The translations under genes were made by a program, and so were the position numbers. A model generated the notes under the pieces. It was not told where the DNA came from. It saw nothing but the letters and a program-made list of their open reading frames with translations, and did not search any database. Positions 13,480 to 30,960 of a stretch of 64,000 bases of DNA are shown one piece after another (position 1 is the stretch's first letter; each line of letters begins with the position of its first letter). The DNA comes from Metabacillus sediminilitoris (GTDB lineage: Bacteria; Bacillota; Bacilli; Bacillales; Bacillaceae), in assembly GCF_009720625.1 (NCBI RefSeq), contig NZ_CP046266.1, positions 2,985,501-3,049,500 of the forward strand, read 5' to 3'.

Positions 13480-13617
13480 ATGAAAAATGACGATAAATTT
13501 ATTTGTAATGAAGAAATGGACTATGTAAATCATATGCTGAATGAACAGATCACACGAATTTGTGTGAAAGAGGAAGAAGAAAGAATCAAAGAAGAATTGG
13601 AGAAGGAAGAAATGTAA
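13480..13617 (+). CDS. Small acidic/charged protein, 45 aa, unknown
   Basis: ATG 13480 follows ATAGGAAGGTG at good spacing and the frame ends at TAA 13617. The product begins MKNDDKFICNEEMDYVNHML and ends in a Glu/Lys run (VKEEEERIKEELEKEEM) that would form a charged helix. Two Cys residues are present. No family was recognised. It has its own AT-rich promoter region and the bidirectional terminator 13687-13724 downstream, so it is probably a real monocistronic mini-gene. Confidence 0.6.
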   Translation: MKNDDKFICNEEMDYVNHMLNEQITRICVKEEEERIKEELEKEEM

Positions 13618-13686
13618 TTTACTTTACGCTTACTAAATCAAATGTTGCCGAGTGATTACCTATACGTATCTATTTTAATTGAAATG

Positions 13687-13724
13687 AAAAGCTGTTAAGT
13701 ATAACTCAACAGCTTTTTATTTTC
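13687..13724. terminator. Bidirectional terminator between the 45-aa gene and the GH18 gene
   Basis: AAAAGCTGTT...AACAGCTTTTT with loop AAGTATAACTC. It has T-runs on the plus side and AAAA/TTTT symmetry on the minus side, between two convergent genes. Confidence 0.85.
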
Positions 13725-13726
13725 TA

Positions 13727-14890
13727 TTATGATCCGGATTTAAATGCGTATTGTTTTTGTAAGGCTTGCTCTTGATTAAAAACTTCTGAAATTGTATTCG
13801 TTATACTTTTTGACCCTTTTGCATCGAGCCCTAATTCCCAGAGCATCATCCCGCCAAAGCCGTTTTCTAGTGCTAGGTTTGTTTTCTTTTGAATAGTTGT
13901 TACTCCATTATAATGATAAGTGGTACCGTTCATATCAACACGGTCTTTTTCAGCGTTTGCTGGATCCTTATTAAGGATGGCAGCATATGAAACTTGTTTA
14001 ATTGATAAGTCTTCAGGTTGTGCATAAGAAGGAACCCCTAATACTAGTTTTTCTTTAGAAATTCCATGTTTGTCAAATAGCTTGGACCAGTAGTCAACAA
14101 TATTTACAGTGAATGAATAAGGAGATAAATTGGCTGCATTGTACTCACCATCCCACTGACCGTCATATGCCATGATATTTATATGATCGACCGTGTTAAA
14201 CATTTTTGGTTCAAATACAACCGAATGGATTTCTGTTCCAGTTACACTGTGGATTTTTGAATAGACGGCAATAGATATCTCCTTGTCTTTTGCATGTAAT
14301 TTTTCGCTTAAAGATTTTGTAAAAACTGCAAGATGGTGTGCATCCTCTTTCGAACGAGGATGTTCGAAGTCTATATCTATACCATCTAGATTTTCTCGGT
14401 CTGCTATTCCAATTAATTCATTAATAAGTTTATGACGGGATACTGGATTAGAAATCGCCGCTTTAAAGTAATCGTATGATTCTCCACCTTCAATATGATA
14501 CCAGCCGCCCACAGCCAACATTGCTTTCTTATCAGCTTGATGTGCTTTTTGTACCATTAACCGTAAATTAGATAGTGCCGATTCACCATTCAGCAATAGT
14601 TTTCCATCTCTTGCGGGATGAGCAAAGGAAAAAATGACATGTGTTAATTCGGTATAATCAATTGAGGCAGGGTCACGAAAATCCTGTACATATCCGATCA
14701 ATACTTTTGGTTTCAAATGTTCTATCTTTGGAAACTGTTTTTGTTTTAACTGCTTTGCAGATAGAGGTGACTGATCTGTTTTTAACTTTTTTTGAGTTAA
14801 GTTATTTTCTGAGAAAATTACTCCAGAAAAAAGTCCTCCAAGAAAAATAAAAAGTCCTGTCATTATAAGGAGGACGTAATGTTTTTTCAT
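13727..14890 (-). CDS. Glycoside hydrolase family 18 (chitinase-like) protein, exported or membrane-anchored
   Basis: 387 residues from ATG 14890 (ATG ATG behind GGAAGG; an upstream GTG 14908 overlaps the ribosome site). An N-terminal signal/anchor (YVLLIMTGLFIFLGGLFSG) precedes a GH18 barrel: VLIGYVQDFRDPASIDYTEL, VIFSFAHPA, AVGGWYH, and the catalytic DGIDIDFEHP (DxxDxDxE, with Glu as acid). HINIMAYDGQWDG and GGMMLWELGLD follow. It should cleave beta-1,4-GlcNAc polymers such as chitin oligomers or peptidoglycan-like glycans at the cell surface. It has no LysM or chitin-binding module. It is monocistronic. Confidence 0.92.
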   Translation of the reverse strand: MKKHYVLLIMTGLFIFLGGLFSGVIFSENNLTQKKLKTDQSPLSAKQLKQKQFPKIEHLKPKVLIGYVQDFRDPASIDYTELTHVIFSFAHPARDGKLLLNGESALSNLRLMVQKAHQADKKAMLAVGGWYHIEGGESYDYFKAAISNPVSRHKLINELIGIADRENLDGIDIDFEHPRSKEDAHHLAVFTKSLSEKLHAKDKEISIAVYSKIHSVTGTEIHSVVFEPKMFNTVDHINIMAYDGQWDGEYNAANLSPYSFTVNIVDYWSKLFDKHGISKEKLVLGVPSYAQPEDLSIKQVSYAAILNKDPANAEKDRVDMNGTTYHYNGVTTIQKKTNLALENGFGGMMLWELGLDAKGSKSITNTISEVFNQEQALQKQYAFKSGS

Positions 14891-14990
14891 CATTTTCCTT
14901 CCTTTCACAAATCATGTACTCTACGAATATAGTAACAAAAAATCGAACGGAAAAATGATGGTAATATCATCCTATGAACGAAATGGAAAC

Positions 14991-16121
14991 TTAAAATTTC
15001 ATTTTCTTTGCTAGGGGTTCAACAAAGAAATCCATTATCCACTTTAAAAAACTCCAAGCTAGTTTTGATTTGAATGGTAAATGCTCCTGGTAAAAGTAAG
15101 TATATTCAATCTCCTGAATTGAGCCTCGCTTTTGCTTAAATTTTGAAGCACCAGCACTTCGATGGCCTAAATAGTGATGAGCCAAGATTTCTTTTGTAAT
15201 TAAATATGATAATACTCGATAAAGCCCGTATTCCTTATCACGATTTACTAAATAACCTAAAATAGGAGTTGTAAGTACGCCATTTTTCACCCAACACCCT
15301 ATTACACCTAATATTTCGGAATCCTTACATACTAGTTTGAAATAGAGAAGCTTATTTGTCACTATATTTTCAAAAAAATCCTTTGTAAATTGTGGATTGT
15401 TTTTTGAATATTTATCTATATAAAGTTGATTGTATAATGCTTCAATAATCGAATATTCATCATCTTTTATATCTCTTATTTGATAACCAAATTTTTGGAT
15501 AAGTTTCTGATCTTGATTTAGGACCTTTCTTTGTTTTCTTGTTAACGTTTTTTTAGGATCCCATAAATAAATTGAACGAGACATGATACCTTTATAGCCT
15601 ATTCTTCTTAACCCAGTGATCATATCGTGATGTAGTGTTTCATTTATGGATCTAAATAGAATCGTATGCTGTGGAAAACAGCTTGTAAGATAGGCAGTTA
15701 ATCTTTTAACCTGGTCATTTGAAATGTGCGGGTATAGGTTAGTTGACATAAGAAAGTTATTTACAACTATAACTTTGTTTATATTACTTTTACGAAGTAT
15801 AAATCCTATTATGCTTAGGATATGTGTAAAGAGTTTTTCTAGTCTCCTATTTCCTAGTTCCCAAAGCTCTTCTTTCGCATAACTAATATAATGTGTATAT
15901 GGTGAAGCCACATATGAATTATTAAATTCTTTTTCATTTATAGTAATTGGTAAAATAAGATCATCGATTTCCAGTAAAAAAATACTTGTCTCTATATTTT
16001 TAATTGTTGCCTGTGTACCCTTCTTTATTAAAGGCTCAAAAAATCCCCTTATGAATTCTCCATCCTGCTTTGTTGACCATTCAATTGAATCCATATCATT
16101 TGCATTATACAATTTTACCAT
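14991..16121 (-). CDS. GNAT/FemAB-like acyl- or aminoacyl-transferase, last gene of biosynthetic operon
   Basis: 376 residues with no named motif certain. The second half has a GNAT-like core: LYFKLVCKDSEILGVIGCWV, then GYLVNRDKEYGLYRVLSYLI, then HRSAGASKFKQKRG, in the two-domain arrangement of FemAB/long GNAT proteins. The first half (HYISYAKEELWELGNRRLEK) would be the paired domain. Its start overlaps the end of the adenylating-enzyme gene by 17 bp, so the two are translationally coupled. An acyltransfer to a product or lipid made by the operon is the simplest role; this is inferred. A C-terminal hydrophobic, basic tail could bind membrane. Confidence 0.65.
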   Translation of the reverse strand: MVKLYNANDMDSIEWSTKQDGEFIRGFFEPLIKKGTQATIKNIETSIFLLEIDDLILPITINEKEFNNSYVASPYTHYISYAKEELWELGNRRLEKLFTHILSIIGFILRKSNINKVIVVNNFLMSTNLYPHISNDQVKRLTAYLTSCFPQHTILFRSINETLHHDMITGLRRIGYKGIMSRSIYLWDPKKTLTRKQRKVLNQDQKLIQKFGYQIRDIKDDEYSIIEALYNQLYIDKYSKNNPQFTKDFFENIVTNKLLYFKLVCKDSEILGVIGCWVKNGVLTTPILGYLVNRDKEYGLYRVLSYLITKEILAHHYLGHRSAGASKFKQKRGSIQEIEYTYFYQEHLPFKSKLAWSFLKWIMDFFVEPLAKKMKF

Positions 16122-17448
16122 CGAATTGTTCCCTCATCTCGTTTGCAATCCGTTTACGTTTACTAGCAGATGGGATTAAATCATATGGAAGAAAATGCAT
16201 GTCGGGGATGACTAACTGATGGTGTGCCCAAATAGCTCCAAGCTCATTCTTCACACTTTCTGAAACTAATTCTTGATTTGCTTTTACCTTAAGTTTTATT
16301 TCAATCAAATCCAAAGTTAGCTGGGTTACTTTGTATTCAAGAATCAGATCAGAAGCTAACATGATTGCCCGTCGGATAAAATCTGGAAAAAGGATTCCTA
16401 TCTCTTTACTATTGTTTTTATATCCGTAAAATAAGTCATCACAACGACCATCAATTCTTTCTAATGCTAAGAAAGGAGATCCACAAGGACAAGAAGTTTT
16501 TCTTTCAATTAATAGATCATTTAATCGATATCGAATGATTGGTTGTGTTTTCCTAGTAAAATCAGTGATGATTGGCACAAATACACCTTTATCCTTATCA
16601 AGATATTCTTTTTCTACTAATACTAGATCTTCATTTATGTGAAGAATACCTTTTGAGCATGTAGCTGCTAAAAATCCTTCAGTACATTGATACACTTGAT
16701 GCAAAGTCTGTTTAAAAACAGTTTCAATTAATCTTCTATCAATTTCCTCTAAGACTTCAGCGACCGAAATGATCTTAAGTGGCCGAATTGAAATCTTTTC
16801 ATCCATTTGCCATTCTGCTAATTTCCTTAACATGGATGGAGGAGCAATAATAATAGTAGGCTGCAATTTATTAATTCGCTCAATATGTAAGGGAAGATCA
16901 TCGAATAGATCAAAAAAAGTGAAGGAAATACGGCCATTTGCAGTTGTCCTATATAAATTATTGTTAGCGCGAAGAAAAAACGCAATCTTTTGCTTATCAA
17001 ACAATTTACCTGGTAATAGCTTAGCTAAAACCGTCCCAGCCCACATGGCAGATTCTTTGTCACTTACTAAAAAGACGCCTTGATTTCCACTTGTTCCAGA
17101 GGATAACCCTATCGAAATATGTCCGAGCTTTGGTGAAAAATCTCTGGATCTCTCTGCCTCAATTGCTAATTTAAGAGCACTTTCCTTTTTAATTCCTACA
17201 GTATTTAAATCATCAAAATGGTTCATCATGATGGATTTATCTATTATAGGCAGGGCTGATAAATTGTTATTGTTAATAGCTTTTTGAAAATCATGATAAA
17301 ACATTTGATAAAAAGGGGAATGATTCATCACAAATGATAGTTGTTTTTTTATTTTACGATTCTGAAAAGATTGCAATTCTTCGATGCTAGAAAAATTCCG
17401 TCTAAACTTCGTTATCAAAAATTGTTTTACAAGTTCTAGTTTATTCAT
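16105..17448 (-). CDS. Adenylate-forming enzyme of the F390-synthetase-related clade (PaaK/CapK fold)
   Basis: 447 residues from ATG 17448 behind AAAGGGG. The phosphate-binding loop GLSSGTSGNQGVFLVSD (about 115-130), the YQCTEGFLA motif near 240 and the C-terminal hinge RYRLNDLLI followed by CPCGSPFLALERIDGRCDD are those of PaaK/F390-synthetase-like AMP-forming enzymes. The Cys-x-Cys pair is typical of this clade. It should activate a carboxylic acid as acyl-AMP. It overlaps the neighbours on both sides, so it acts within the KAS III/ATP-grasp/epimerase operon. Neither F420 biosynthesis nor a CoA-ligase partner is in sight, so the substrate is open. Confidence 0.85.
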   Translation of the reverse strand: MNKLELVKQFLITKFRRNFSSIEELQSFQNRKIKKQLSFVMNHSPFYQMFYHDFQKAINNNNLSALPIIDKSIMMNHFDDLNTVGIKKESALKLAIEAERSRDFSPKLGHISIGLSSGTSGNQGVFLVSDKESAMWAGTVLAKLLPGKLFDKQKIAFFLRANNNLYRTTANGRISFTFFDLFDDLPLHIERINKLQPTIIIAPPSMLRKLAEWQMDEKISIRPLKIISVAEVLEEIDRRLIETVFKQTLHQVYQCTEGFLAATCSKGILHINEDLVLVEKEYLDKDKGVFVPIITDFTRKTQPIIRYRLNDLLIERKTSCPCGSPFLALERIDGRCDDLFYGYKNNSKEIGILFPDFIRRAIMLASDLILEYKVTQLTLDLIEIKLKVKANQELVSESVKNELGAIWAHHQLVIPDMHFLPYDLIPSASKRKRIANEMREQFDGKIV

Positions 17449-18289
17449 AAACAAACCCCTTTTTCACCTGATCCCATGTTTTGCTGCAATGTGTCGGCAA
17501 AATATCAATATCAGGATTTGTTATTGATAAATGATGCAGTTTTTTTATATTTTTTTTATAAGCCTCAACATCTTCGATAATAAAACTTGCTACTTTATGT
17601 GGAAGAATAAGCTGCTCATATGCTTGACTAACCCATACTGCATCCGCACATAAAAAGACCTTTTTACCGCTTAGAAGATTTACAAAAATTCCAAATTGTC
17701 CTATTGCATGCCCTGTTAAATCAACTGCAATGATTGAGTTATCACCTAGCACATCATAACCCTTTGAAAAATCTCCATAGCATTTATCCAAGACAATCTC
17801 TCCTTGATCTATAAACGAAGTTCTCGTATCAATATCATTTGGAAGTAAATCAAGCAAACATCCCTTTAATAGTGCTCTGAATTTACTTATCGATCGAATC
17901 GATTGATAGGCATTTTTAAAAGTTAAAATTGTAGCATTAGGAAAATCTTTTAATCCGCCGATATGATCACCATGAAAGTGAGAAAGAATAATCGTATGAA
18001 TTTGCTCTCGTTTAATTCCGTCTTTTTCTAATTGGTTTACGATTGCTTTTTCTTCCGAGAAAAACACTGGTGTTAATTTCGCATAGATTGAATAAGGGAA
18101 TTTTTTCGTTGCTTGAAAAAAACGAGCGGCATAACCTGTATCGAAAAGAATATACCCTCTTGTAGGATGCTGTAATAAAGCAACTGTTGCCGGAAATTTT
18201 AATCGTTTTAGTGAGCCATTTGGTAAAACAACCTTTTCTGGATGTGTACAGTAACCACATTCATAAAGTTTAAGTTTGTTAATTAGCAT
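17441..18289 (-). CDS. Metallo-beta-lactamase-fold hydrolase, lactonase-like
   Basis: 282 residues. The metal motif LSHFHGDHIGGL (HxHxDH) lies near residue 105, followed by DLTGHAIGQFG and CADAVW (bridging Asp) and a final His in LPTHCSKTW. The N-terminal HPTRGYILFDTGYAARF resembles the lactonase/AttM branch, where the barrel hydrolyses lactone or thioester bonds. It overlaps the adenylating-enzyme gene by about 8-14 bp and the epimerase gene by 11 bp. In context it may release or open a product or cut a thioester; this is inferred. Confidence 0.88.
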   Translation of the reverse strand: MLINKLKLYECGYCTHPEKVVLPNGSLKRLKFPATVALLQHPTRGYILFDTGYAARFFQATKKFPYSIYAKLTPVFFSEEKAIVNQLEKDGIKREQIHTIILSHFHGDHIGGLKDFPNATILTFKNAYQSIRSISKFRALLKGCLLDLLPNDIDTRTSFIDQGEIVLDKCYGDFSKGYDVLGDNSIIAVDLTGHAIGQFGIFVNLLSGKKVFLCADAVWVSQAYEQLILPHKVASFIIEDVEAYKKNIKKLHHLSITNPDIDILPTHCSKTWDQVKKGFVYE

Positions 18290-19271
18290 GCATTTTCCAC
18301 CATTCTACAAATTCCTTCGTTCCATCCTCAATTGAAAGAGCTGGACGATAACCTAATTCCCGTCGAGCTTTCTCAATTGATAATGTTTGTGATTGTGAAA
18401 GAACACTTACGGTATAACGAGTTAACAGTGGTTCTTTTCCACCTAAACAAATTGTTGAGGTACATTCTAGTAACCTAGCAATAAAAAATGCCTTTTTAGT
18501 AGAAATATTTCTAAATTTCGTCGTCTTATTCAATTGCCCCATAACATCATTGATCATATCGTATAAATTAACTCTGACACCATTTGTAATGTTATATTTG
18601 GTACCTAAAGTTGACTCCTCTGAGCTAAGGCATAGTAGTAATGCATCAACAACATTCTCAACATAGGTAAGATCAATTTCGACCTCTCCATTACCTATTT
18701 TCGGAAAAACTCCTTTTTCACAAACCCTAATCAACCTTGGTAGAATTGCGTTATCTCCAGGGCCAAAAATGGCTCTCGGTCTAATGGTAATTGTCGGCAA
18801 ACCTTCCTGAAAAGCTTTATCAACTTCTAACTCAGCTAAATATTTCGTTTCCGCATAATGGTTAACAAATTTTTCCGGTAAAGGATCTGTTTCTTTCACA
18901 TCTCGGCGCTCATCATAATAAAAATAAAGACTTGGTGTTGATACATGTATAAGACGTTTAACCTTCCACTTTTTGCAGCCTTCAATGACATTCTTCGTGC
19001 CTATAACATTTGCTGAATAAAATTCTTTATATTTCCCCCATGGTGACGAAAGCGCTCCACTATGAAAAACATAATCCTGATTTCTACAAAGCTCTATAAT
19101 CCGTTCTTGATTCTCTAATGCTGCTGCTTCAAATGTAATTCCTTTCTCTGTTAACTGTTTACCTATTTCCCAATTACGTCCAATGCCAGTGACATTGAAT
19201 CCAAGTGAAACCAATCTGTAAGCTAGTTTTTGACCTAAAAATCCTGTTGCTCCAGTTACTAATACATTCAA
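18279..19271 (-). CDS. NAD(P)-dependent epimerase/reductase (extended SDR, 3beta-HSD/OleD-like)
   Basis: 330 residues. The Rossmann start MNVLVTGATGFLGQKLAYRL gives the GxxGxxG motif, and the catalytic YxxxK is HYAETKYLAE with Ser in HVSTPSLYF. The element SSPWGKYKEFYSANVIGTKN and RPRAIFGPGDNAILPRLI fit the 3beta-hydroxysteroid dehydrogenase-like group that includes OleD, the ketone reductase of olefin/beta-lactone pathways. With a ketoacyl synthase III in the same operon, reduction of a beta-keto product is a good guess. ATGA overlap (19268-19271) couples it to the ATP-grasp gene. Confidence 0.88.
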   Translation of the reverse strand: MNVLVTGATGFLGQKLAYRLVSLGFNVTGIGRNWEIGKQLTEKGITFEAAALENQERIIELCRNQDYVFHSGALSSPWGKYKEFYSANVIGTKNVIEGCKKWKVKRLIHVSTPSLYFYYDERRDVKETDPLPEKFVNHYAETKYLAELEVDKAFQEGLPTITIRPRAIFGPGDNAILPRLIRVCEKGVFPKIGNGEVEIDLTYVENVVDALLLCLSSEESTLGTKYNITNGVRVNLYDMINDVMGQLNKTTKFRNISTKKAFFIARLLECTSTICLGGKEPLLTRYTVSVLSQSQTLSIEKARRELGYRPALSIEDGTKEFVEWWKMHAN

Positions 19272-20428
19272 ATATCTTCACCATCCCAGCTAATATCATA
19301 AGTTGACTGTTCTAGCATGTTAACATGATTCTTTCGACTAGCCTTCCATAAGTCATACATACAGATGAATTGATAGAAAAATGGAGTTTTATCGTTTTTT
19401 CGATAAACCGTATCTTTATATGTAAACAACATTAGAAAAAATCGTTTTATTTGATATATGCTTTTAACATTTTTCATGCTATATAGAAGAACACCTAATT
19501 TAATTGCTTCTTTCGTTTCCTTCTTAGGATACATAGTTTCTCGTATTTCATCATTTATTATCGAATGTGCAATTTCCTTGCCAAATAAATGTAACCCGCT
19601 CGTTGCTCGAGGATTACATTCTATTGGTATCGCAATACCAGCTTGATTCACAATAAAGTCAAATGATATTTGGCCTGTATACGATAACTTTTCTACTATC
19701 ATTTTTACAAAAAGTTCAATATCATCTTTTTCACTGTGTTCAAATGTAAGTGTCGCTCCTATACCAGCAGTAAATTCGGATTTATAGACCGCATGTGCAA
19801 GTAATTTCCCATCTCTAGCGATGCCGTAGGAACAATATTGTGTTCCTCTAATTCTCTCCTGAATTAACCAAGACGAATTTGTAAAATCACATTTCGGTAT
19901 TTCATCACCAGACTTATAAAAAGTAACTGACTCAGAAAAACGTGAATATACTTTTTTTAATACAAATTCGCTAGGGAATTCCCTTTCAATAAAAAATGGA
20001 ACCAATTGCGATGAGAGTAAAAACGTTTTAGGGGTTTTGAAACCCAGATCTGCTACAAATTGTATAAAGTTGCCTTTATGATGAAGTAATTTCATTTTAT
20101 CAAATTCATCTACGAACACATCACAGTAGTGTGATAATTGTTTCCGGAACATCGATATATAGAAAGTTTCCTCACATGTTGGTATCAATACATCAATTTC
20201 TCTCTTATTAATAATTTGAATTAAGCACTCAATAAACCGATGTGTTTCAAATTTTGGACTTGGATATAAAAAGTATTCTTTGCTATATCTCGATGATTTT
20301 GCTAGTGCATGAAAAACACTGTCAGCCGTATAGATTTCATTTCCTGACTCTGCTAAGACTCGGCATAGATGAAGTGTAATCGGTGCTCTTGCACCTGTAA
20401 TCATTATTCGTTTCTTTTTAATACTCAA
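19268..20428 (-). CDS. ATP-grasp domain protein (carboxylate-amine ligase type)
   Basis: About 386 residues. The start is probably TTG 20428, eight bases after GGAGG; the longer frame to 20443 begins on the TTG that overlaps that site. A pre-ATP-grasp domain (RIMITGARAPITLHLCRVLA) is followed by the ATP-grasp fold: FVLKKVYSRFSESVTF, WLIQERIRGTQYCSYGIARD and the metal site FDFIVNQAGIAIPIECNPRA. Relatives join a carboxylate to an amine through acyl-phosphate, like the CarB-like ligases of peptide natural products. It overlaps the KAS III gene by about ten bases, so it is the second gene of the operon. Substrates are unknown. Confidence 0.85.
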   Translation of the reverse strand: MSIKKKRIMITGARAPITLHLCRVLAESGNEIYTADSVFHALAKSSRYSKEYFLYPSPKFETHRFIECLIQIINKREIDVLIPTCEETFYISMFRKQLSHYCDVFVDEFDKMKLLHHKGNFIQFVADLGFKTPKTFLLSSQLVPFFIEREFPSEFVLKKVYSRFSESVTFYKSGDEIPKCDFTNSSWLIQERIRGTQYCSYGIARDGKLLAHAVYKSEFTAGIGATLTFEHSEKDDIELFVKMIVEKLSYTGQISFDFIVNQAGIAIPIECNPRATSGLHLFGKEIAHSIINDEIRETMYPKKETKEAIKLGVLLYSMKNVKSIYQIKRFFLMLFTYKDTVYRKNDKTPFFYQFICMYDLWKASRKNHVNMLEQSTYDISWDGEDI

Positions 20429-21407
20429 GAACGATGCCTCCAATTGATAGACCGGCAGATGTACCTAAAAGTAATATTGTATCTCCCCTGTTTACTCTTC
20501 CTTGTTTAATCGCTTCATAAAGTGCCATCGGGATAGACGCTGCAATCATATTTCCATAGTTTTCAATAATATTCATAAACCTTGATTCATCTACGCCAAG
20601 TTTTTTCCTGATAATTTTCATCGCAGAAGCACTTGCTTGGTGAGGTATGACCATATGTATATCTTTTATTGAAAGATTAGTAGATGAAAATAACGTTTCA
20701 ATAAAACTAGGAAGTAGTTTAAAAGATAATTTAAATAAAGCTTTTCCATCCATATCAAAAAGGAAATCATCTTTTGTTTGTTCATCATAAAATTTTGGAT
20801 GTATCTTTGTTCCCCCACCTCTTATTTCAGATAAATGTGCACCCAAACTATGCGTCTCCATATGGGAACTAATAATTCCTGAATGATCATGAGATTTAGA
20901 TAATACAATGGCGACAGCACCGTCACCAAATAAGATACTGCTTTCTGGTTGATCCCAGTTCAACCCTACAGATGAAATTTCTGAAGAAACCAATAGAACA
21001 TTCTTATATCTTCCATATTCGATTGCATATGAAATCATATCTAATGCTGACACAAAGCTTAGACAAGTTGAGTTCACGTCAAAAGATGGGATACCTGAAT
21101 GATGAAGTCCCAATTGTTCCTGGATCAAGGATGCAGTGCAAGGTATAGCTTGTTCCATTGTTCCGCTTCCACTAATAATACAATCAATATCATTTAGAGA
21201 AATGCCTGCATCTTGAACTGCTTGTAAAGCAGCTTCAGCTCCCATGAATGATGCGGTTTCCCCATCTACATAGTATCGTTGCTTCACACCGGATTTTTTT
21301 TCGGACCATCCAATAGATTGAGAAAACATTTTATCGATTTCTTCAGCTTTTACAATTCGTTTTGGTAAATATGAACCTATTCCTATTATTTTTACGCTAC
21401 GTTTCAT
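20418..21407 (-). CDS. 3-oxoacyl-ACP synthase III-type ketosynthase, first gene of biosynthetic operon
   Basis: About 329 residues; ATG 21407 is preferred because GAGGTG lies seven bases before it. The KAS III triad is complete: Cys in DVNSTCLSFVSALDM, His in MVIPHQASASAM, Asn in IIENYGNMIAASIPM. FGDGAVAIVLSK and GTSAGLSIGGIVLEY are also typical. This is unlikely to be housekeeping FabH, which normally sits with fabF; it resembles specialised FabH/OleA-like enzymes that condense two acyl thioesters or make a beta-keto acid. It opens the six-gene overlapping operon and shares a 150-bp divergent region with a DUF3231 gene. Confidence 0.9.
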   Translation of the reverse strand: MKRSVKIIGIGSYLPKRIVKAEEIDKMFSQSIGWSEKKSGVKQRYYVDGETASFMGAEAALQAVQDAGISLNDIDCIISGSGTMEQAIPCTASLIQEQLGLHHSGIPSFDVNSTCLSFVSALDMISYAIEYGRYKNVLLVSSEISSVGLNWDQPESSILFGDGAVAIVLSKSHDHSGIISSHMETHSLGAHLSEIRGGGTKIHPKFYDEQTKDDFLFDMDGKALFKLSFKLLPSFIETLFSSTNLSIKDIHMVIPHQASASAMKIIRKKLGVDESRFMNIIENYGNMIAASIPMALYEAIKQGRVNRGDTILLLGTSAGLSIGGIVLEY

Positions 21408-21556
21408 TTTATTGCACCTCATATGTATGTGTATATGTTAAGTTACATTAATAGTAATTATAAACAATTTTTATCCAGGCAGAATCCTTCCTTTCATGAA
21501 TAATTCACGATATAACAGCGCAAAATATTTCAAAAAGCTGTCTCAGGGAGGTCACC

Positions 21557-22564
21557 ATGCAAGATAAAAAGGCTATTCGCCTAACAGCGGCAGAGATGTC
21601 ATCACTCTGGTCGCAGTATATGAATGATACTGCATTAATCTGTATGCTTACTCAATTCCTCGAAAATCTAGAAGATGAAGAAGTTCGCCCAGTTATTGAG
21701 CTTGCATTAAAAACATCAAACGATAATCTTATATTTTTAAAAGAACTTTTCCAAAAAGAACACTTTCCTGTACCAGTAGGGTTTACGAATGAGGATGTCA
21801 TTTCAAAAAAACATAAGCTTTTTTCAGACACATTTGTTTTGATGTATTTACGTCAAATGTCAATTCTTGGCATGACTGCTAGTAGTATGGCTCTTGGTTT
21901 TGTAACAAGAGAAGACATTTTTGCCTTTCATAAAGAAGTATTACAATCTTCTGTTAAATTAAAATATCTTTCAAGGGAATTAATGCTAAAACAAGGCACT
22001 TATGTACGCCCGCCTTTTATCTCTATACCAGATAAAGTTGATTTTATTGATAGTCAGCAATTTTTAGCAGGTTTTATTGGCAAAAAACGACCACTTACTT
22101 CAATTGAAATTACACATTTATTTATTAATATTCAAACAAACATGATAGGCAAAACATTAATTGTAGGATTCTCTCAAATAGCTCAAAATAAAGAAGTAAT
22201 CAATTATTTAGTTAGAGGTAAGCAATTAGCGCAGAAACATATAGATCTTTTTAGTGAAATATTAAAAAAGTATGATTTACCTGCTCCAATGTCATGGGAC
22301 ACTGCCGTAACAGATAATACTATTCCAATATTCTCAGATAAATTAATCATGTTTCATGTTTCAGCGATGATTGCTGCTGGTGTTGGAAATTATGGGGTAG
22401 CAATGGGCGCAAGTCCAAGAAGAGATATCGCATTAAAATATGCAACTCTCATACCAGAGATAGCTTTATATGCTGAAGATGGAGCAAATATTTTGATTAA
22501 ACACAGCTGGTTAGAGGAACCACCTCAGACTGACGATCGAAATGAACTAATAAAGAAAAAATAA
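21557..22564 (+). CDS. DUF3231 family protein
   Basis: 335 residues built from two homologous halves of about 165 residues, each a ferritin-like or coat-F-like four-helix region (LTAAEMSSLWSQYMNDTALI in the first; LTSIEITHLFINIQTNMIGK in the second). This tandem-repeat layout is characteristic of DUF3231 proteins of spore-forming bacilli. Each half has a characteristic aromatic/acidic start and helices such as HVSAMIAAGVGNYGVAMGAS. Many bacilli carry several paralogues; function is unknown, with a spore or stress role suspected. It is divergent from the biosynthetic operon, behind CAGGGAGGTC, and monocistronic. Confidence 0.85.
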   Translation: MQDKKAIRLTAAEMSSLWSQYMNDTALICMLTQFLENLEDEEVRPVIELALKTSNDNLIFLKELFQKEHFPVPVGFTNEDVISKKHKLFSDTFVLMYLRQMSILGMTASSMALGFVTREDIFAFHKEVLQSSVKLKYLSRELMLKQGTYVRPPFISIPDKVDFIDSQQFLAGFIGKKRPLTSIEITHLFINIQTNMIGKTLIVGFSQIAQNKEVINYLVRGKQLAQKHIDLFSEILKKYDLPAPMSWDTAVTDNTIPIFSDKLIMFHVSAMIAAGVGNYGVAMGASPRRDIALKYATLIPEIALYAEDGANILIKHSWLEEPPQTDDRNELIKKK

Positions 22565-22587
22565 AGAGAACTAAATCATAATTTTGA

Positions 22588-22632
22588 GGGCTTCAAGATG
22601 AGTATCAACTAATATTGAAAGCCTTTTTTATA
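22588..22632 (+). terminator. Intrinsic terminator after the DUF3231 gene
   Basis: GGGCTTCAA ... TTGAAAGCC then TTTTTTA. Confidence 0.85.
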
Positions 22633-22884
22633 TTATGTATATAAAAAAGGAGAGATTATTACTATTTCCTTTAATTAAACTCATAAACTTCATTTTTGTA
22701 TATAAAACACATTTTATAAAAAAGGTATAAAGAGTTGTGTTCTAATAAATGAGAACCTTAAAAAATCCTATTTAACATAGAGGATTTGCGTACCTTGAAG
22801 AATTTCAACCTAAACTTTTTGTACAGAATATCTTTATTAAGCAGATTGCCTCTATTTTAAAGTAACTAATTACCAATATATTAA
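22633..22884. other. AT-rich convergent spacer
   Basis: No gene, repeat or RNA signature recognised between the two terminators. Confidence 0.4.
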
Positions 22885-25402: not shown

Positions 25403-26506
25403 TTATTTATTCATTAGCCATTTCTTTTTAAAAAAAACAATCATAACTAATAAAAATGGGACCACCATAAATAATGGAATATAGACGTATTTTGGTATTA
25501 TTTTATTTCCAACTACCGCATGTTCTATATAATTAGGCGCCATTAATATCGACAAAGCAATAACTGCAGTTCCTAAAATCGGAATCGTATATTTAGTTAT
25601 CTGATCCTTATTTATAAGATTTGAAATACCCTCAATAGCACCTAAAAAAAATATGGTAATTTTAAAAAATCCACCAATTATCAACATAATAAGTGCAATA
25701 GGATCGAGCCTTTGAAAGACATCTCCAATATTTATTTTTTCAACTGTATCTAATAAAGGAAATGTACTGATTTTAGCAGCATATGGTCCAAGAACACTAA
25801 TCATTACTGTAGTCGCAATTAGTAAGATAATTCCGCTAAAAATAATTCCTAAAAAACCACTAATAACCCCTTGCTTCTGACTATTTAAATATGGAAAAAA
25901 GATAGTAAAGACAATAGATTCGCCAAAAGGAAAAGAAAAAATTGTCGGGAAAGCAACTTTCCATATAGGTTGCCATCCACCTTCAAGGACAGGTTGAAGA
26001 TTTTCTAGCTTAGGAAGACCACTGATCAAGATAAAAAGGATAAACAGGAAACTAAAGAACATGACCCAAAAAAAGAAAATCTCTGCTGTTCTTGCAATCA
26101 CTTCAAATCCTAAATAACAGGCAAAACAGATGACTGCCATAAACATAATTGCTATTACCAAAATTGGTGTTTCGACTAATATCGTGATTAAAACAAGCTC
26201 ACAGAATATTCTTAAAACCCTTGCTGCAATATATAAGAATAAACAAATATAGATGACCGCAAGTAATCGGCCAATCATCTTTCCCACAATTAATTCAAGA
26301 TAATTCATCATAGATAAGTCTGGAAATTGTGTGTAGAGATAAATATATAAAGAAAATAAAACAAGACCTCCCAACAGCCCTAAAAGTATTGCTAACCATG
26401 CATCTTGTTTTACTTCTAAACCTAATCCAACCACTACCGAACTTCCAACTTCAAATAAAACCATTAAAACGAATAGCTGAAACGGCTGTAGCTTGTTTGG
26501 AATCAA
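25403..26506 (-). CDS. Spore germination receptor B subunit (GerAB/GerKB family), second copy
   Basis: 367 residues, ten predicted TM helices of the APC-like GerB family (LFVLMVLFEVGSSVVVGLGL near the start; FPFGESIVFTIFFPYL; DPIALIMLIIGGFFKI). It starts at TTG 26506 behind AAAGGAGGTG. GerB subunits sit in the inner spore membrane and bind the amino acid or sugar germinant. It is the fifth gene of the ger operon and follows a paralogue by 28 bp. The two B proteins differ clearly, so the receptor may accept alternative B subunits. Confidence 0.9.
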   Translation of the reverse strand: MIPNKLQPFQLFVLMVLFEVGSSVVVGLGLEVKQDAWLAILLGLLGGLVLFSLYIYLYTQFPDLSMMNYLELIVGKMIGRLLAVIYICLFLYIAARVLRIFCELVLITILVETPILVIAIMFMAVICFACYLGFEVIARTAEIFFFWVMFFSFLFILFILISGLPKLENLQPVLEGGWQPIWKVAFPTIFSFPFGESIVFTIFFPYLNSQKQGVISGFLGIIFSGIILLIATTVMISVLGPYAAKISTFPLLDTVEKINIGDVFQRLDPIALIMLIIGGFFKITIFFLGAIEGISNLINKDQITKYTIPILGTAVIALSILMAPNYIEHAVVGNKIIPKYVYIPLFMVVPFLLVMIVFFKKKWLMNK

Positions 26507-26534
26507 TGTAACACCTCCTTTTTCAAGATTTCAG

Positions 26535-27641
26535 CTAAGATGATTTAGCAGCAGAGATTTTCTTACTAAGTTTCCCTATGATTACTACTAAGAGCGGGAG
26601 AAACAAACAAATCGTGAAAGAATAATGTGGCCATGTTTTCGCAAGGAAATGTTGAAAATGAACCATATCTGGATGTGCAATAATTGAAAAAGAAATGATT
26701 AATAAAAACAATGGAAACATTAATATTTGATGACTTTTTAATCCCAGTACATTCGCTAGTCCATTTGATAAACTGTAATAACAGATGGAGATTTTGAAAT
26801 ATACTGTAAGTATCCATATAATGGCCACAATGGCTTCAATGCGTTCTAAAAAGCCGCCTATATTTATCTTTTTACCTAATATAAAAGATGGATAAGATTG
26901 TCTGGCACTGTTTTCTGCACCTAAAACTAAAATACTAAATAATATGATCAGTGTTATTACCAAACCACCAAATAATGTCCCTTTATAAAAGGCCCTTTTC
27001 ATTTGTTTCTTTTCATTTACATATGGTGCTACCATTAATAAGATTATTAGTTGGTTATATGGGATTGATAAATTGTTATATGTAGCCTTCATAAATGGTT
27101 TTAATCCTGCTTCTAAAATTGGCTGAACATTTTCTAGCTTGATTTCAGGAATGAGAAATAAAAATAACATAAGTAAAAGAAAGATTATCCAAGGGTAAAA
27201 AATAAGTGCAGTGCGGACGATAACCTCTAACCCTAACCTGACACCGTATAAAACTGTTAATAAAAACAAGATCATGATTATCTCAATCGGCGTTTCAACC
27301 AATATTTGCGTTGTGAAAAAATTCCCGATTTCTCTGAGTACTCCAGCAGTAAGGTAATATAAATAAAAAAGAAAGATCAGGGCAGCGATTTTACCTAACC
27401 ATTTTCCAAACACTTTTTCAAGACATTCAATAAATGTCATAGATGGATAAAGATCAGCTATTTTATTATATAGATAAATAAAAAATAAACTGATTAGAAC
27501 TGTTAACGCTGATGTAATCCAGGCATCTTGTTTTACAATCTTTGTAACTTGTGAAGGTGAAGTAAGAACGGAAGATCCAATTGTAAATACAATGACTAAT
27601 AATTGAAATTCCGTTGCATTAATTTTTCCTTTTTCAAGCAT
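26535..27641 (-). CDS. Spore germination receptor B subunit (GerAB/GerKB family), first copy
   Basis: 368 residues, about ten TM helices, with the GerB signature start ATEFQLLVIVFTIGSSVLTS and later ILTVYFKISICYYSLSNGLA. ATG 27641 sits ten bases after AGGTGGG; GTG 27647 is an alternative. It is paralogous to the next gene (shared GLKPFMKA/GWQPIWKV loops, and KINIGGFLERIEAIVAI against KINIGDVFQRLDPIALI). It is separated from the upstream small gene by about 130 bp, which holds no clear terminator. Its role is germinant recognition with the A and C subunits. Confidence 0.9.
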   Translation of the reverse strand: MLEKGKINATEFQLLVIVFTIGSSVLTSPSQVTKIVKQDAWITSALTVLISLFFIYLYNKIADLYPSMTFIECLEKVFGKWLGKIAALIFLFYLYYLTAGVLREIGNFFTTQILVETPIEIIMILFLLTVLYGVRLGLEVIVRTALIFYPWIIFLLLMLFLFLIPEIKLENVQPILEAGLKPFMKATYNNLSIPYNQLIILLMVAPYVNEKKQMKRAFYKGTLFGGLVITLIILFSILVLGAENSARQSYPSFILGKKINIGGFLERIEAIVAIIWILTVYFKISICYYSLSNGLANVLGLKSHQILMFPLFLLIISFSIIAHPDMVHFQHFLAKTWPHYSFTICLFLPLLVVIIGKLSKKISAAKSS

Positions 27642-27775
27642 ATTCACTCATCCCACCTACAACCGAAGTTTTTCATCATGACATTATAGTAATCAAGTTT
27701 ATTTTTACAATAAAAAACAGATTAATTTAAAAAGGATGCACATTTTTTATAAATCCTTTTCGTACTTTCCAACAT

Positions 27776-28009
27776 CTAGGATAAAATCCGCTCGACGAAA
27801 GATGTTACTGGACTATATATTTTTTCTATCCAGTTTATGGGTGTAGGGATATTAATTTTCAAACACAATAAAACAGCAAAAGTCATACCGATTGAAAGTA
27901 ATAGAAAATAGGCAATAATTTCTCTCCACCATCTCTTCTTTACTAGGGGAGGAATTTCAAATAATGAAATAACCACACCTGTTGTTAACATACCAATAAT
28001 TGCCCACAT
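27776..28009 (-). CDS. Small two-TM protein of the ger operon, probable D subunit
   Basis: 77 residues with two hydrophobic helices (MWAIIGMLTTGVVISLFEIP and AYFLLLSIGMTFAVLLCLKI) separated by a basic loop VKKRWWRE. It ends in a short polar tail. It lies four bases downstream of the gerC-type gene and before the B genes. Small two-helix D subunits in ger operons are known from other Bacillus species to modulate receptor activity. The assignment rests on size, topology and position, not on a motif. Confidence 0.7.
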   Translation of the reverse strand: MWAIIGMLTTGVVISLFEIPPLVKKRWWREIIAYFLLLSIGMTFAVLLCLKINIPTPINWIEKIYSPVTSFVERILS

Positions 28010-28012
28010 TGG

Positions 28013-29206
28013 TCATTGCTCCTCAATTTCTTTTTGGAATTCTTCTGTTATTGTGCCTAATCGGCGAATATTTGCCATTACATTAACAGTCACTTCCATT
28101 TTTGCAAATTCTTGATCCCAATTCTTCTCAAGGCTCTTCCAAGCCTTAGGATCCGAACGATGGATCACTTCTCCAAATCCAAAAATATCACTTTGATAAT
28201 TATCCTGCATCGATTTAAGTGCTGCTTTAATTTTCCCTTTTATCGATTCCTTATATTTTTCGTTTAACTGTTGAATACTTTCTGGTTTTGTTAAATCGAT
28301 ACTGCATTCAACTTCGCCAACGAATCCTTCAGCGTTAACATCTATTTCTATTTTAGGTTTTCCTTTTACGACTTTCCCTTTAACCTTTGTTTTTGAGCGG
28401 GTAGTATCTATTGTTACCTTACTATCTTCACATGCAAATGTAACAGGTGTCTTTTTTATATTATCTGTTATATAGTTAAAGCCTCTGCTTTCATCTTCCG
28501 TTAACCAACCTAATAGCTTATCATTTTTAAATACTCCTATTGAGTTAATTCTTAAACCAGTTGCTGGGGAAACATTTTGTATATTAGTAAATTCACTTCC
28601 AGTTTCAGGATCACCATACACATATACACCAGTTAAAACAGGCTCTTTCCCTTTACTGACAATGCTACTAATTAACTCATCCAACCTAACAGTCTTAGTA
28701 GGCGACCATGCTTTCTCTGAATTTTCTAAGGCGTTTGCGATTTTTATTGAAGGTATTTTTTCAAGAGCAGTTTGGACATTTAGAACATCGTATGCAGTTG
28801 TTCCTTTTGCAACAGTAATAAAGAAATCAGAACGTAATTCATGTTGCCTGGAAAGCACGTCCAGAGCTTTTCCAATACCTTCCTGTGCAAGTTCTTCACC
28901 TATAACGACTAACTGAAGATGCGCCACATAAATTCTTCTAGGGGCATCAGTAGATAAATGTCTTACAGCATCATAAATCGTTTCTCCACTTTTCATAAAG
29001 CTTACAACTTCTGTCCGACCTGATGCAGATTGTCCAGCAATTTCACTTGGATTAACGATTTGGACTGATACCATATACCCTTCTTCTGTTTTATCAATTC
29101 CCATTGATGTCACGATGGCCAGTTCGTTTAGTTCAGTCCTGCTCCAACAACCTGATAGAAATATGATCAGGATACTAATCATGACATACAAATTCCTTTT
29201 TTTCAT
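28013..29206 (-). CDS. Spore germination receptor C subunit, lipoprotein (GerAC/GerKC family)
   Basis: 397 residues from ATG 29206 behind GGGGGAAG; the longer open frame to 29317 overlaps the A gene and is spurious. A lipoprotein signal peptide ends in FLSGC, then WSRTELNELAIVTSMGIDKT, the GerC-family start. Three-domain GerC features follow (RRIYVAHLQLVVIGEELAQE, SKGKEPVLTGVYVYGD, ending WDQEFAKMEVTVNVMANIRR). The protein is lipid-anchored on the outer face of the inner spore membrane and is needed for receptor assembly. It is 26 bp after the A gene. Confidence 0.93.
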   Translation of the reverse strand: MKKRNLYVMISILIIFLSGCWSRTELNELAIVTSMGIDKTEEGYMVSVQIVNPSEIAGQSASGRTEVVSFMKSGETIYDAVRHLSTDAPRRIYVAHLQLVVIGEELAQEGIGKALDVLSRQHELRSDFFITVAKGTTAYDVLNVQTALEKIPSIKIANALENSEKAWSPTKTVRLDELISSIVSKGKEPVLTGVYVYGDPETGSEFTNIQNVSPATGLRINSIGVFKNDKLLGWLTEDESRGFNYITDNIKKTPVTFACEDSKVTIDTTRSKTKVKGKVVKGKPKIEIDVNAEGFVGEVECSIDLTKPESIQQLNEKYKESIKGKIKAALKSMQDNYQSDIFGFGEVIHRSDPKAWKSLEKNWDQEFAKMEVTVNVMANIRRLGTITEEFQKEIEEQ

Positions 29207-29232
29207 TTTCTTCCCCCGGCAACTGAGAGTTT

Positions 29233-30960
29233 TTAGCGTGTTGGTTTTGGAGGAGGTGTATCTCCTCTTTTTATATCCTTTTGATTGATTAACCGTGGAC
29301 GCGAAGCTAAAGCCCAATGCGGAAAGCGTAGGATATTATCTTTTTGGTCCTGTAAAATAAATGGGGCGCTTGGAGATAAATAAGGTATACCAAACGATCT
29401 TAAGCTGTTAAGATGAAGAACCATAACAATTAATCCTAAAATAATACCAAACAGTCCAAATGTAGCTGCGAGAAACATAAACAAGAACCGAAGAATTCGA
29501 ATTGATATAGATAAATTAAAGGATGGAGATACAAAGCTACTTATCGCTGTTAAGGAAACAACTATTACCATCGATGCTGAAACAAAGCCAGCTTCAACTG
29601 CAGCTTGACCAATAACTAATGCACCCACAATTGATATAGAAGAACCTACAGCTCGAGGTAATCTCACTCCTGCCTCCCTTAAGATTTCAAATGTTAATTC
29701 CATTAGTAACGCCTCTACAAGTGCTGGAAATGGTACACCCTCACGCTGAGAGGCAAGGTTAATGATTAATGAGGTTGGGAGCATTTCTTGATGAAATGTC
29801 GTAACAGCAATATAGGAAGATGGTGTCAGTAATGCCAGGAAAAAACATATATAACGTAAGATTCGAATAAAAGATGCAATATCAGCCCGTTGATAGTAAT
29901 CCTCACTTGATTGAAAGAAGTGGGTAAATAATGCTGGAACGATAAGCACAAAGGGCGTTCCATCAACAAGTATTGCAATCCTTCCTTCTAAAATTGCACC
30001 AGCAACAGCGTCTGGACGTTCTGTATTATAAACAGTTGGAAATGGAGAATATGTTGAATCTTGAATGAGTTCTTCAATATAACCACTTTCAAGAATAGCA
30101 TCAATGTTAATTCTCTTTAATCTGTCTTGAACCTCTTTGACTAATTTGTCATTCGCTACTCCTTTTAAGTACATAATTGAAACGTCTGTTTGTGTCTTTT
30201 TTCCAATCTGACTTGTTTCTAACCAAAGGTTCGGATCTTTTATTCTTCGTCTTATTAATGCCGTATTTGTCCTCAGTGTTTCTGAAAAACCGTCCTTAGG
30301 ACCTCTAACAACAGTTTGTGATGATGGCTCCTGAACACCGCGATCAACCCAACTTCTAAAACCAAGTACGAATCCCTTCTCATAGCAATCAAATAAAATG
30401 ATTGTATCACCTGACAATAAGTGTAAAAAAAGTTTTTGAAACTCACTTATTTCTTTTATTTCTCCTACTGGTAGTGAATCAGCTTTCAGTGCGTCCATTA
30501 AATTTGAAGCATGAAACTCTTCTGATTCTAATTCTGCATTGCGAATTTTGACCATTAGATTTTCAAGAATAAACTCTTGAACAGAATCTGAATTAGTTAG
30601 ACCATCCGTATAGATGACGCCAATTTTAATTTCTCCGTTAAGACCAACATGAAAATCCCTTATTACGATGTCAGAACTATTTCCTAACGTTTCTTTTATA
30701 TAATTCATATTTTTTTTGAGGTCAAAACCGATATTAATTTTTTCCTGTACCTGTACATCTTGATTTTGTACCTGTTTTTTATAGTTGATTTTAACTTTTG
30801 GATTCCTTAGTGTTTTACTTTTATTTTCATTTTTCAGTTGATTTTGGCTACCCTGATGCTTTTCTTCCACTTTTTGTTCAGCTTTTGCGAGATCTTTCTG
30901 TTTCTCGTCCTGCTTATCTCTTAATAGCTTTTGCAAAGGGATTGGAATCCTGGTTTTCAA
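29233..30960 (-). CDS. Spore germination receptor A subunit (GerA/GerKA family)
   Basis: 575 residues if it starts at TTG 30960, six bases after GAGGTGG; the open frame runs further upstream without another good ribosome site. A long Lys/Glu/Gln-rich hydrophilic N-terminus (about 1-95) precedes the GerA core with DIVIRDFHVG, TVVRGPKDGFSETLRTNTAL, RRRIKDPNLW and EGRIAILVDGTPFVLIVPAL. A membrane part with about five TM helices follows, and the tail has PHWALASRPRLINQK. It is the first gene of the A-C-D-B-B operon. The N-terminal extension is longer than in GerAA. Confidence 0.92.
   Translation of the reverse strand: MKTRIPIPLQKLLRDKQDEKQKDLAKAEQKVEEKHQGSQNQLKNENKSKTLRNPKVKINYKKQVQNQDVQVQEKINIGFDLKKNMNYIKETLGNSSDIVIRDFHVGLNGEIKIGVIYTDGLTNSDSVQEFILENLMVKIRNAELESEEFHASNLMDALKADSLPVGEIKEISEFQKLFLHLLSGDTIILFDCYEKGFVLGFRSWVDRGVQEPSSQTVVRGPKDGFSETLRTNTALIRRRIKDPNLWLETSQIGKKTQTDVSIMYLKGVANDKLVKEVQDRLKRINIDAILESGYIEELIQDSTYSPFPTVYNTERPDAVAGAILEGRIAILVDGTPFVLIVPALFTHFFQSSEDYYQRADIASFIRILRYICFFLALLTPSSYIAVTTFHQEMLPTSLIINLASQREGVPFPALVEALLMELTFEILREAGVRLPRAVGSSISIVGALVIGQAAVEAGFVSASMVIVVSLTAISSFVSPSFNLSISIRILRFLFMFLAATFGLFGIILGLIVMVLHLNSLRSFGIPYLSPSAPFILQDQKDNILRFPHWALASRPRLINQKDIKRGDTPPPKPTR

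Follow-up and report, generated by a model that had tools for sequence, protein, structure and literature searches.

A conserved six-gene operon of Metabacillus sediminilitoris and its relatives, with a candidate role in making a lipid-like acyl conjugate

A six-gene operon of Metabacillus sediminilitoris, located on the 64,000-nucleotide stretch of DNA analysed here (the window; assembly GCF_009720625.1, contig NZ_CP046266.1, forward-strand positions 2,985,501 to 3,049,500), resembles several described systems in part. The OleABCD pathway to olefins or beta-lactones combines a condensing enzyme, the short-chain dehydrogenase/reductase (SDR) OleD, an AMP-forming enzyme and a hydrolase, and the operon is functionally like it in encoding a condensing enzyme, an OleD-like SDR, an AMP-forming enzyme and a hydrolase. 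It differs, however, in that its ketoacyl synthase (KAS) III belongs to another group that lacks the OleA glutamate, its AMP-forming enzyme is PaaK/F390-like, its hydrolase has the metallo-beta-lactamase (MBL) fold, and it possesses additional ATP-grasp and FemX-like genes. The FemX and MprF aminoacyl transferases have a tandem GNAT fold in common with a predicted model of the operon's last protein, at only about 10% identity. Myxopyronin and corallopyronin are the products of polyketide synthase (PKS) systems, and we know of no core of SDR, MBL and F390-related enzymes in those pathways. Their condensing enzymes, MxnB and CorB, share a Cys-His-Asn triad with the operon KAS; the MxnB paper (PMC4578411) gives this triad and reports that both enzymes lack the catalytic glutamate of OleA and PpyS, with Val94 in its place, where the operon enzyme has Ile93. 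Finally, bacterial sphingolipid synthesis by Spt, bCerS and CerR proceeds through condensation, acyl transfer and reduction to a two-chain lipid (PMC11087976), and the operon uses a KAS III instead of Spt.

The six co-directional open reading frames (ORFs) lie on the minus strand, and all five junctions overlap at the called starts, by 26, 4, 11, 14 and 17 bases, counted from the KAS end of the operon (Table 1), much as an earlier sequence-only reading of the window had described. The same reading placed the KAS start at an ATG at 21407, a choice favoured by the sequence immediately 5' of this ATG, which reads GAGGTG in the window; of 17 relatives, 11 share it and six have variants such as GGGGTG and GAGGGG. 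The operon is a conserved unit made of two separable modules, and the reading that we tentatively favour for its product is a long-chain, lipid-like acyl conjugate, built from a probably two-chain beta-hydroxyacyl core unit and an amino-acid-like group.

Table 1. Features of the operon and its downstream flank, in window coordinates
Feature	Coordinates	Strand	Evidence
KAS III condensing enzyme	20418..21422, start probably ATG 21407	minus	NF005541 541 bits, cut-off 402; PDB 4v2p/4yuc best; tree; conservation
ATP-grasp carboxylate-amine-ligase-type protein, TTG start	19268..20443	minus	
Extended SDR / 3beta-HSD-like reductase, nearest NCBIfam models OleD	18279..19271	minus	NF042422 220 bits, NF042423 215 bits; Y139/K143
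MBL-fold hydrolase, lactonase-like group	17441..18289	minus	PF00753; AttM-type model; PDB lactonases; seven metal-binding residues
F390-synthetase-related adenylate-forming enzyme, PaaK-like	16105..17454	minus	TIGR02304; 4r1l by profile
Tandem-GNAT protein, FemX/MprF-type fold, probable aminoacyl- or acyltransferase	14991..16121	minus	
GH18 glycoside hydrolase, outside conserved set	13727..14908	minus	PF00704
Terminator-like hairpin after GH18	13687..13717	minus	weak: 6 found in region vs 3.9 expected in shuffles

Conservation of the unit was followed through related loci. A scan of named species genomes with a Bacilli-heavy query gave 521 such loci, of which the best 80 were kept, Brevibacillus reuszeri supplying four (two assemblies, two loci each) and an uncultured Brevibacillus two. 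Profile searches found the four core genes (KAS, SDR, MBL and F390-related) near one another in 72 of the 80, and KAS, ATP-grasp, SDR, MBL and F390 in this order in 66; GNAT was present in 48, all six genes in 42, and all six in the window's order in 39. The sequence-only reading had staked itself on homologues of the six genes co-occurring in other genomes, and these counts show that they do. The next gene was no more than 40 bases away from the homologous start in 65 of 67, 61 of 64, 66 of 68, 72 of 75 and 43 of 44 pairs of neighbouring genes, counts that go by aligned residues and not by start codons, as junction counts from longest ORFs overstate overlap. Equally small overlaps occur in the annotated records of Paenibacillus urinalis and Escherichia coli ABU 83972. 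Chance clustering is ruled out by gene order, spacing and co-occurrence across related loci and genomes. Of the 80 loci, 25 have a second SDR within or after the operon; an SDR similarly placed at locus L115 scores 217 against 400 bits for 3-ketodihydrosphingosine reductase and 372 bits for PRK06914, over the latter's cut-off of 320. Brevibacillus contigs can also carry two copies of the operon, about 26 to 33 kb apart (L053 with L075; L082 with L089).

The two modules are a core (KAS III, SDR, MBL and F390-related enzyme) and a pair (ATP-grasp protein and FemX/MprF-fold GNAT), so that the single six-gene operon of the sequence-only reading stands as a conserved unit but not as an indivisible one. 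Among 60 related genomes, with its own counted, the KAS was over cut-off in 19 and the F390-related enzyme in 18 of those, the nineteenth having a fragment at a contig end. ATP-grasp (E up to 1e-40) was found in 17 of the 60 and GNAT (E up to 1e-20) in the identical 17, the two being jointly present or jointly absent in 60 of 60; genomes G005 and G019 possess the core and lack both. In three draft congeners (G008, G017 and G018), GNAT is located on a different contig from the operon with its ATP-grasp gene. A wider table of 110 loci contains three repeats (L114/L095, L117/L045 and L137/L096), and 109 were tabulated, L138 having no F390: 57 had ATP-grasp and GNAT, 30 ATP-grasp only, 19 neither, and three GNAT only. 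GNAT was then searched for elsewhere in the genome for 23 of the 30 ATP-grasp-only loci and seven of the 19 loci with neither; the other seven ATP-grasp-only loci are two repeats, three plasmid records, and L023 and L028, which lie in G017 and G018, both with GNAT elsewhere. Where the locus had ATP-grasp, 17 of 23 genomes encoded GNAT elsewhere (16 long matches and one fragment of 73 positions), and where it had none, 0 of 7 did (Fisher p 0.0008, uncorrected for kinship). Genome-wide absence of ATP-grasp was checked in five of those seven, and L025 and L026 were judged to be G005 and G019.

Some loci speak against so strict a pairing. No GNAT match was found in 6 of the 23 ATP-grasp genomes (two of them metagenome-assembled genomes), GNAT occurs without ATP-grasp at three loci (L043, L070 and L111), and ATP-grasp is over cut-off nowhere in the L043 and L070 genomes (no match and 28.7 bits, respectively). 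At L111, a DUF3419 gene lies between F390 and GNAT. In 13 neighbourhoods of GNAT genes outside the operon, no clear partner gene was seen across lineages; four Paenibacillus neighbourhoods are alike, and an SDR is beside or near the gene in four (three Metabacillus-group genomes and Paenactinomyces). Damaged or split copies occur as well, with F390 and GNAT each in two pieces in G007, one stop in G018, and ATP-grasp in two pieces in G013 and, over two contigs, in G020; these could reflect decay or faults of sequencing or assembly. In G054 the KAS, at 336 bits, is under cut-off, and there is no F390.

The KAS is the enzyme that bears most directly on chain number. Over the whole protein it scores 541.4 bits against the PRK07204/NF005541 cut-off of 402, which makes it a member, and among solved structures it comes nearest to MxnB and CorB (282 and 271 bits); the best NCBIfam model of MxnB is the same one, at 324 bits, below that cut-off. 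Residue alignments comprised 75, 71, 68, 74 and 80 sequences for KAS, ATP-grasp, SDR, MBL and the F390-like enzyme, respectively, the window being counted in each. The triad C120/H261/N291 is present in the window and conserved at 97% or more, and the position of OleA E117 and PpyS E105, matched by eye through the MxnB alignment and the Val94 given in PMC4578411, is Ile93, with isoleucine in 58 and leucine in 17 aligned sequences. Because this position is isoleucine or leucine in all 75, the KAS is not OleA-like and an OleA-type mechanism is ruled out; of the earlier reading, the KAS III assignment holds and the likeness to OleA does not. In a tree of 30 sequences, in which the only other KAS III enzymes were four FabH-like proteins (three from this genome and one solved structure), the operon KAS and MxnB/CorB split from those four at 100/100, on long branches. 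On sequence, the KAS groups with the two-chain-joining MxnB and CorB and not with FabH, and joining of two chains is plausible.

Two alternatives turn on this enzyme. A FabH-type starter KAS could lead to a single-chain product, a short- or medium-chain beta-hydroxyacyl amide or lactone signal with the MBL protein as its dedicated lactonase. Its FabH-type triad, its lack of the OleA/PpyS glutamate and an MBL protein nearest to acyl-homoserine lactonases would all suit such a route, yet we consider it unlikely, given a KAS clade that stands apart from the genome's own FabH-like paralogues, an MBL protein far under the lactonase cut-offs, and the fatty-acid and lipid enzymes that adjoin the core in several lineages. 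Alternatively, the KAS could fuse two beta-ketoacyl chains into an alpha-pyrone or butenolide-type molecule that is later decorated by the ligases, as might be supposed from MxnB and CorB being its closest solved relatives by sequence and likewise without the glutamate. This seems quite improbable, as a pyrone that cyclises by itself is a poorer match for a dedicated reductase and an acid-activating enzyme than a free beta-hydroxy acid would be, and no PKS or carrier protein was seen among those neighbouring proteins that were scanned.

The remaining core enzymes and the ATP-grasp protein retain residues that we take to be catalytic, each in the window and conserved in at least 97% of the aligned sequences: E275/N277/R279 of ATP-grasp, Y139/K143 of the SDR, H104/H106/D108/H109/H194/D216/H267 of the MBL protein, and the SSGTSG loop, GRxDD motif and K432 of the F390-like enzyme. 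With the KAS triad, these confirm the earlier statement that the catalytic motifs of the first five proteins are intact. The SDR was likewise rightly described as OleD-like, its best model (NF042422, 220.4 bits) and NF042423 (215 bits) both being OleD, but these scores are far under the OleD cut-off of 580. Together with the likeness of the core's four reaction classes to those of OleABCD, this could suggest an Ole-like route in which the F390-related and MBL proteins replace OleC and OleB and a beta-lactone or olefin is formed. With the OleA glutamate absent, the OleD score so low, and the ATP-grasp/GNAT pair having no evident place in an olefin route, such an outcome is very doubtful.

The MBL protein matches PDB lactonases and is nearest to acyl-homoserine lactonases, at scores below the cut-offs (AttM, 102 against 390 bits; AiiA, 57.4 against 375). 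It carries Trp219 at the place corresponding to Tyr194 of AiiA, the two being set against each other without an alignment, and this is a hint against a plain acyl-homoserine lactonase. The F390-like enzyme is a member of TIGR02304 (562.2 bits, cut-off 251.9) that matches phenylacetate-CoA ligase 4r1l by profile; it is not a coenzyme F390 synthetase (TIGR03335, 26.9 bits against a cut-off of 458.7). A lactonase-like sequence beside a CoA-ligase-like enzyme might be expected of a catabolic or detoxifying operon that degrades acyl lactones or acyl amides, an idea to which we give very little credence, as the one conserved, overlapping unit also includes a condensing enzyme and an ATP-driven ligase, which point instead to synthesis. 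The ATP-grasp protein, at 400.5 bits for PRK06849/NF005315, is just under the cut-off of 406, and its predicted model has the full ATP-grasp ligase fold. For the GNAT protein of the window, neither Pfam nor NCBIfam gave a match at the thresholds applied; in its family, 10 of 32 aligned members (the window counted) match PF13480 and two of 32 match FemAB_like, and its predicted model has the tandem-GNAT FemX/MprF fold.

From gene order, co-occurrence, the split into core and pair, families, residues and predicted folds, we infer a sequence of reactions leading to the long-chain acyl conjugate. The KAS III would join an enzyme-bound acyl group with a second activated acyl thioester (beta-ketoacyl or malonyl) into a beta-keto, probably two-chain compound, whose keto group the OleD-like SDR would reduce to a hydroxyl. 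The MBL hydrolase would then release the acid from its thioester, or open a lactone, and the F390-related enzyme would adenylate the acid for transfer. In the six-gene version, the ATP-grasp enzyme could couple an amino acid or other amine to the carboxylate, and the FemX/MprF-fold GNAT could add an aminoacyl or acyl group. The earlier view of one operon of acyl-type enzymes with adenylation and amide-type ligation is supported, as is its failure to place the operon in a named pathway. The families already have names; for the system no name was found, and no paper describing the gene set appeared among the matches listed in the open-access full-text literature, outside which most subscription journals lie.

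The core recurs in Bacilli, Fusobacterium and Proteobacteria. A 299-genome draw of the phylum had F390 in six genomes (E up to 1e-60), with KAS (E up to 1e-80) in five of the six and in no others, and one of 14 control genomes had F390 over cut-off, a stricter search naming Deinobacterium chartae. In a cyanobacterial draw, F390 was over cut-off in 7 of 244 genomes; the six genes occur in the window's order at L133 and L136, five genes at L137, MBL and F390 at L134, and MBL, F390 and GNAT at L070. The cyanobacterial loci L084 and L070 have no KAS; each genome encodes one elsewhere, in one case over cut-off and in the other truncated by a contig end.

The survey of neighbours covered one E. coli chromosome, a few genomes and 16 of the 25 plasmid records that had an F390 match. 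Several neighbours are of lipid type, and in several lineages such lipid-tailoring genes adjoin a core that lacks the ATP-grasp/GNAT pair. In E. coli ABU 83972 (L112, 3001-9882), a seven-gene relative of the core includes PAP2, a fatty-acid hydroxylase and a fatty-acid desaturase, and sits between narI and tRNA-Tyr/purU; the nearest NCBIfam model to the hydroxylase is the ornithine-lipid hydroxylase OlsE (66.6 against 475 bits). Of 5426 complete E. coli genomes, 671 have at least 80% of this stretch and 672 have the F390-related gene, Nissle 1917 being one of the latter. The E. coli KE48 record L099, although labelled a plasmid, looks chromosomal, with nar, galU and hns around the cluster. In Fusobacterium, the core adjoins a short-chain reductase and a GT21 glycosyltransferase; the Fusobacterium record L105, also labelled a plasmid, looks chromosomal at 2,108,235 bases. 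GT21 also neighbours the core in Paenibacillus caui, and a GT28/EryCIII-like glycosyltransferase in one Bacilli genome. Paracoccus and Ketogulonicigenium have a divergent TetR gene and a sulfotransferase by the core, and Rhizobium has GNAT and a DUF3419 gene, presumably BtaA-like. Three proteobacterial plasmids carry the core, GNAT, a Rieske protein and a convergent ATP-grasp gene on the opposite strand; on two Pseudomonas plasmids, about 9 and 18 kb separate the KAS from the F390 gene. A Rieske-type oxygenase gene is a repeated neighbour of those operon versions that have ATP-grasp and GNAT, in Rhizobiales, Roseateles and Paenibacillus (L140, L141, L142; L057, L078, L080), and the Rieske-bearing Paenibacillus loci also possess a second ATP-grasp gene.

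The lipid hint from these neighbours is real but uneven, and a number of observations weigh against the reading favoured here. Tailoring genes are few and lineage-dependent, and cores without the pair are found with no lipid-type neighbour in Marinisporobacter (L047, L065), in the Metabacillus group (L025, L026, next to GH18) and in Pseudomonas (L101, next to an unmatched protein). Only two of the seven cyanobacterial F390 loci have all six genes together, and at L132 and L135 F390 is alone in the stretch read. The SDR and MBL proteins are far under the cut-offs of their nearest characterised families, and in the tree, whose only other KAS III family is FabH, a long branch leads to MxnB and CorB next to the operon KAS. 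A FemX fold, predicted here, would by itself be no proof of aminoacyl-tRNA use. Finally, there is no acyl carrier protein among the six genes, the surroundings not having been searched for one.

GH18 begins 82 bases past the GNAT gene, and no terminator-like hairpin was listed between the two in the scan that found the one after GH18; it may be read through on the operon transcript. Eight of the 80 related loci, all of Metabacillus or Bacillus sp., have GH18 next to the operon, and two of these eight lack GNAT. A promoter scan of 13500-22800 found 38 candidates, with 43.2 expected in shuffles and hence no excess. Sporulation control was considered, as a DUF3231 gene is next door at 21557-22564 and spore germination genes (two Spore_permease and one GerAC) lie on the same strand at 25403-29317, but no conserved sporulation promoter was seen by eye in 17 relatives and the window. 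An anti-phage system was considered and rejected, the sole PADLOC match being weak (LmuA, E 4e-5, 20.9 bits, to the MBL protein).

It is conceivable, though doubtful, that the core makes the backbone of two-chain lipids without glycerol, which would form an undescribed class, and that lineages swap the head-group enzymes around it. The ATP-grasp enzyme and FemX-like transferase would then serve this role in Bacilli, cyanobacteria and some Rhizobiales, a BtaA-like DUF3419 protein in a Rhizobium, a sulfotransferase in Rhodobacterales, GT21 or other glycosyltransferases in Fusobacterium, Paenibacillus caui and another Bacilli genome, and PAP2, hydroxylase and desaturase in roughly an eighth of complete E. 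coli genomes. If so, common bacteria, among them E. coli Nissle 1917 and Bacilli of soil, would carry a whole biosynthetic pathway that has gone unread under names such as "F390 synthetase-related", and that might yield a new membrane lipid or a secreted acyl conjugate.

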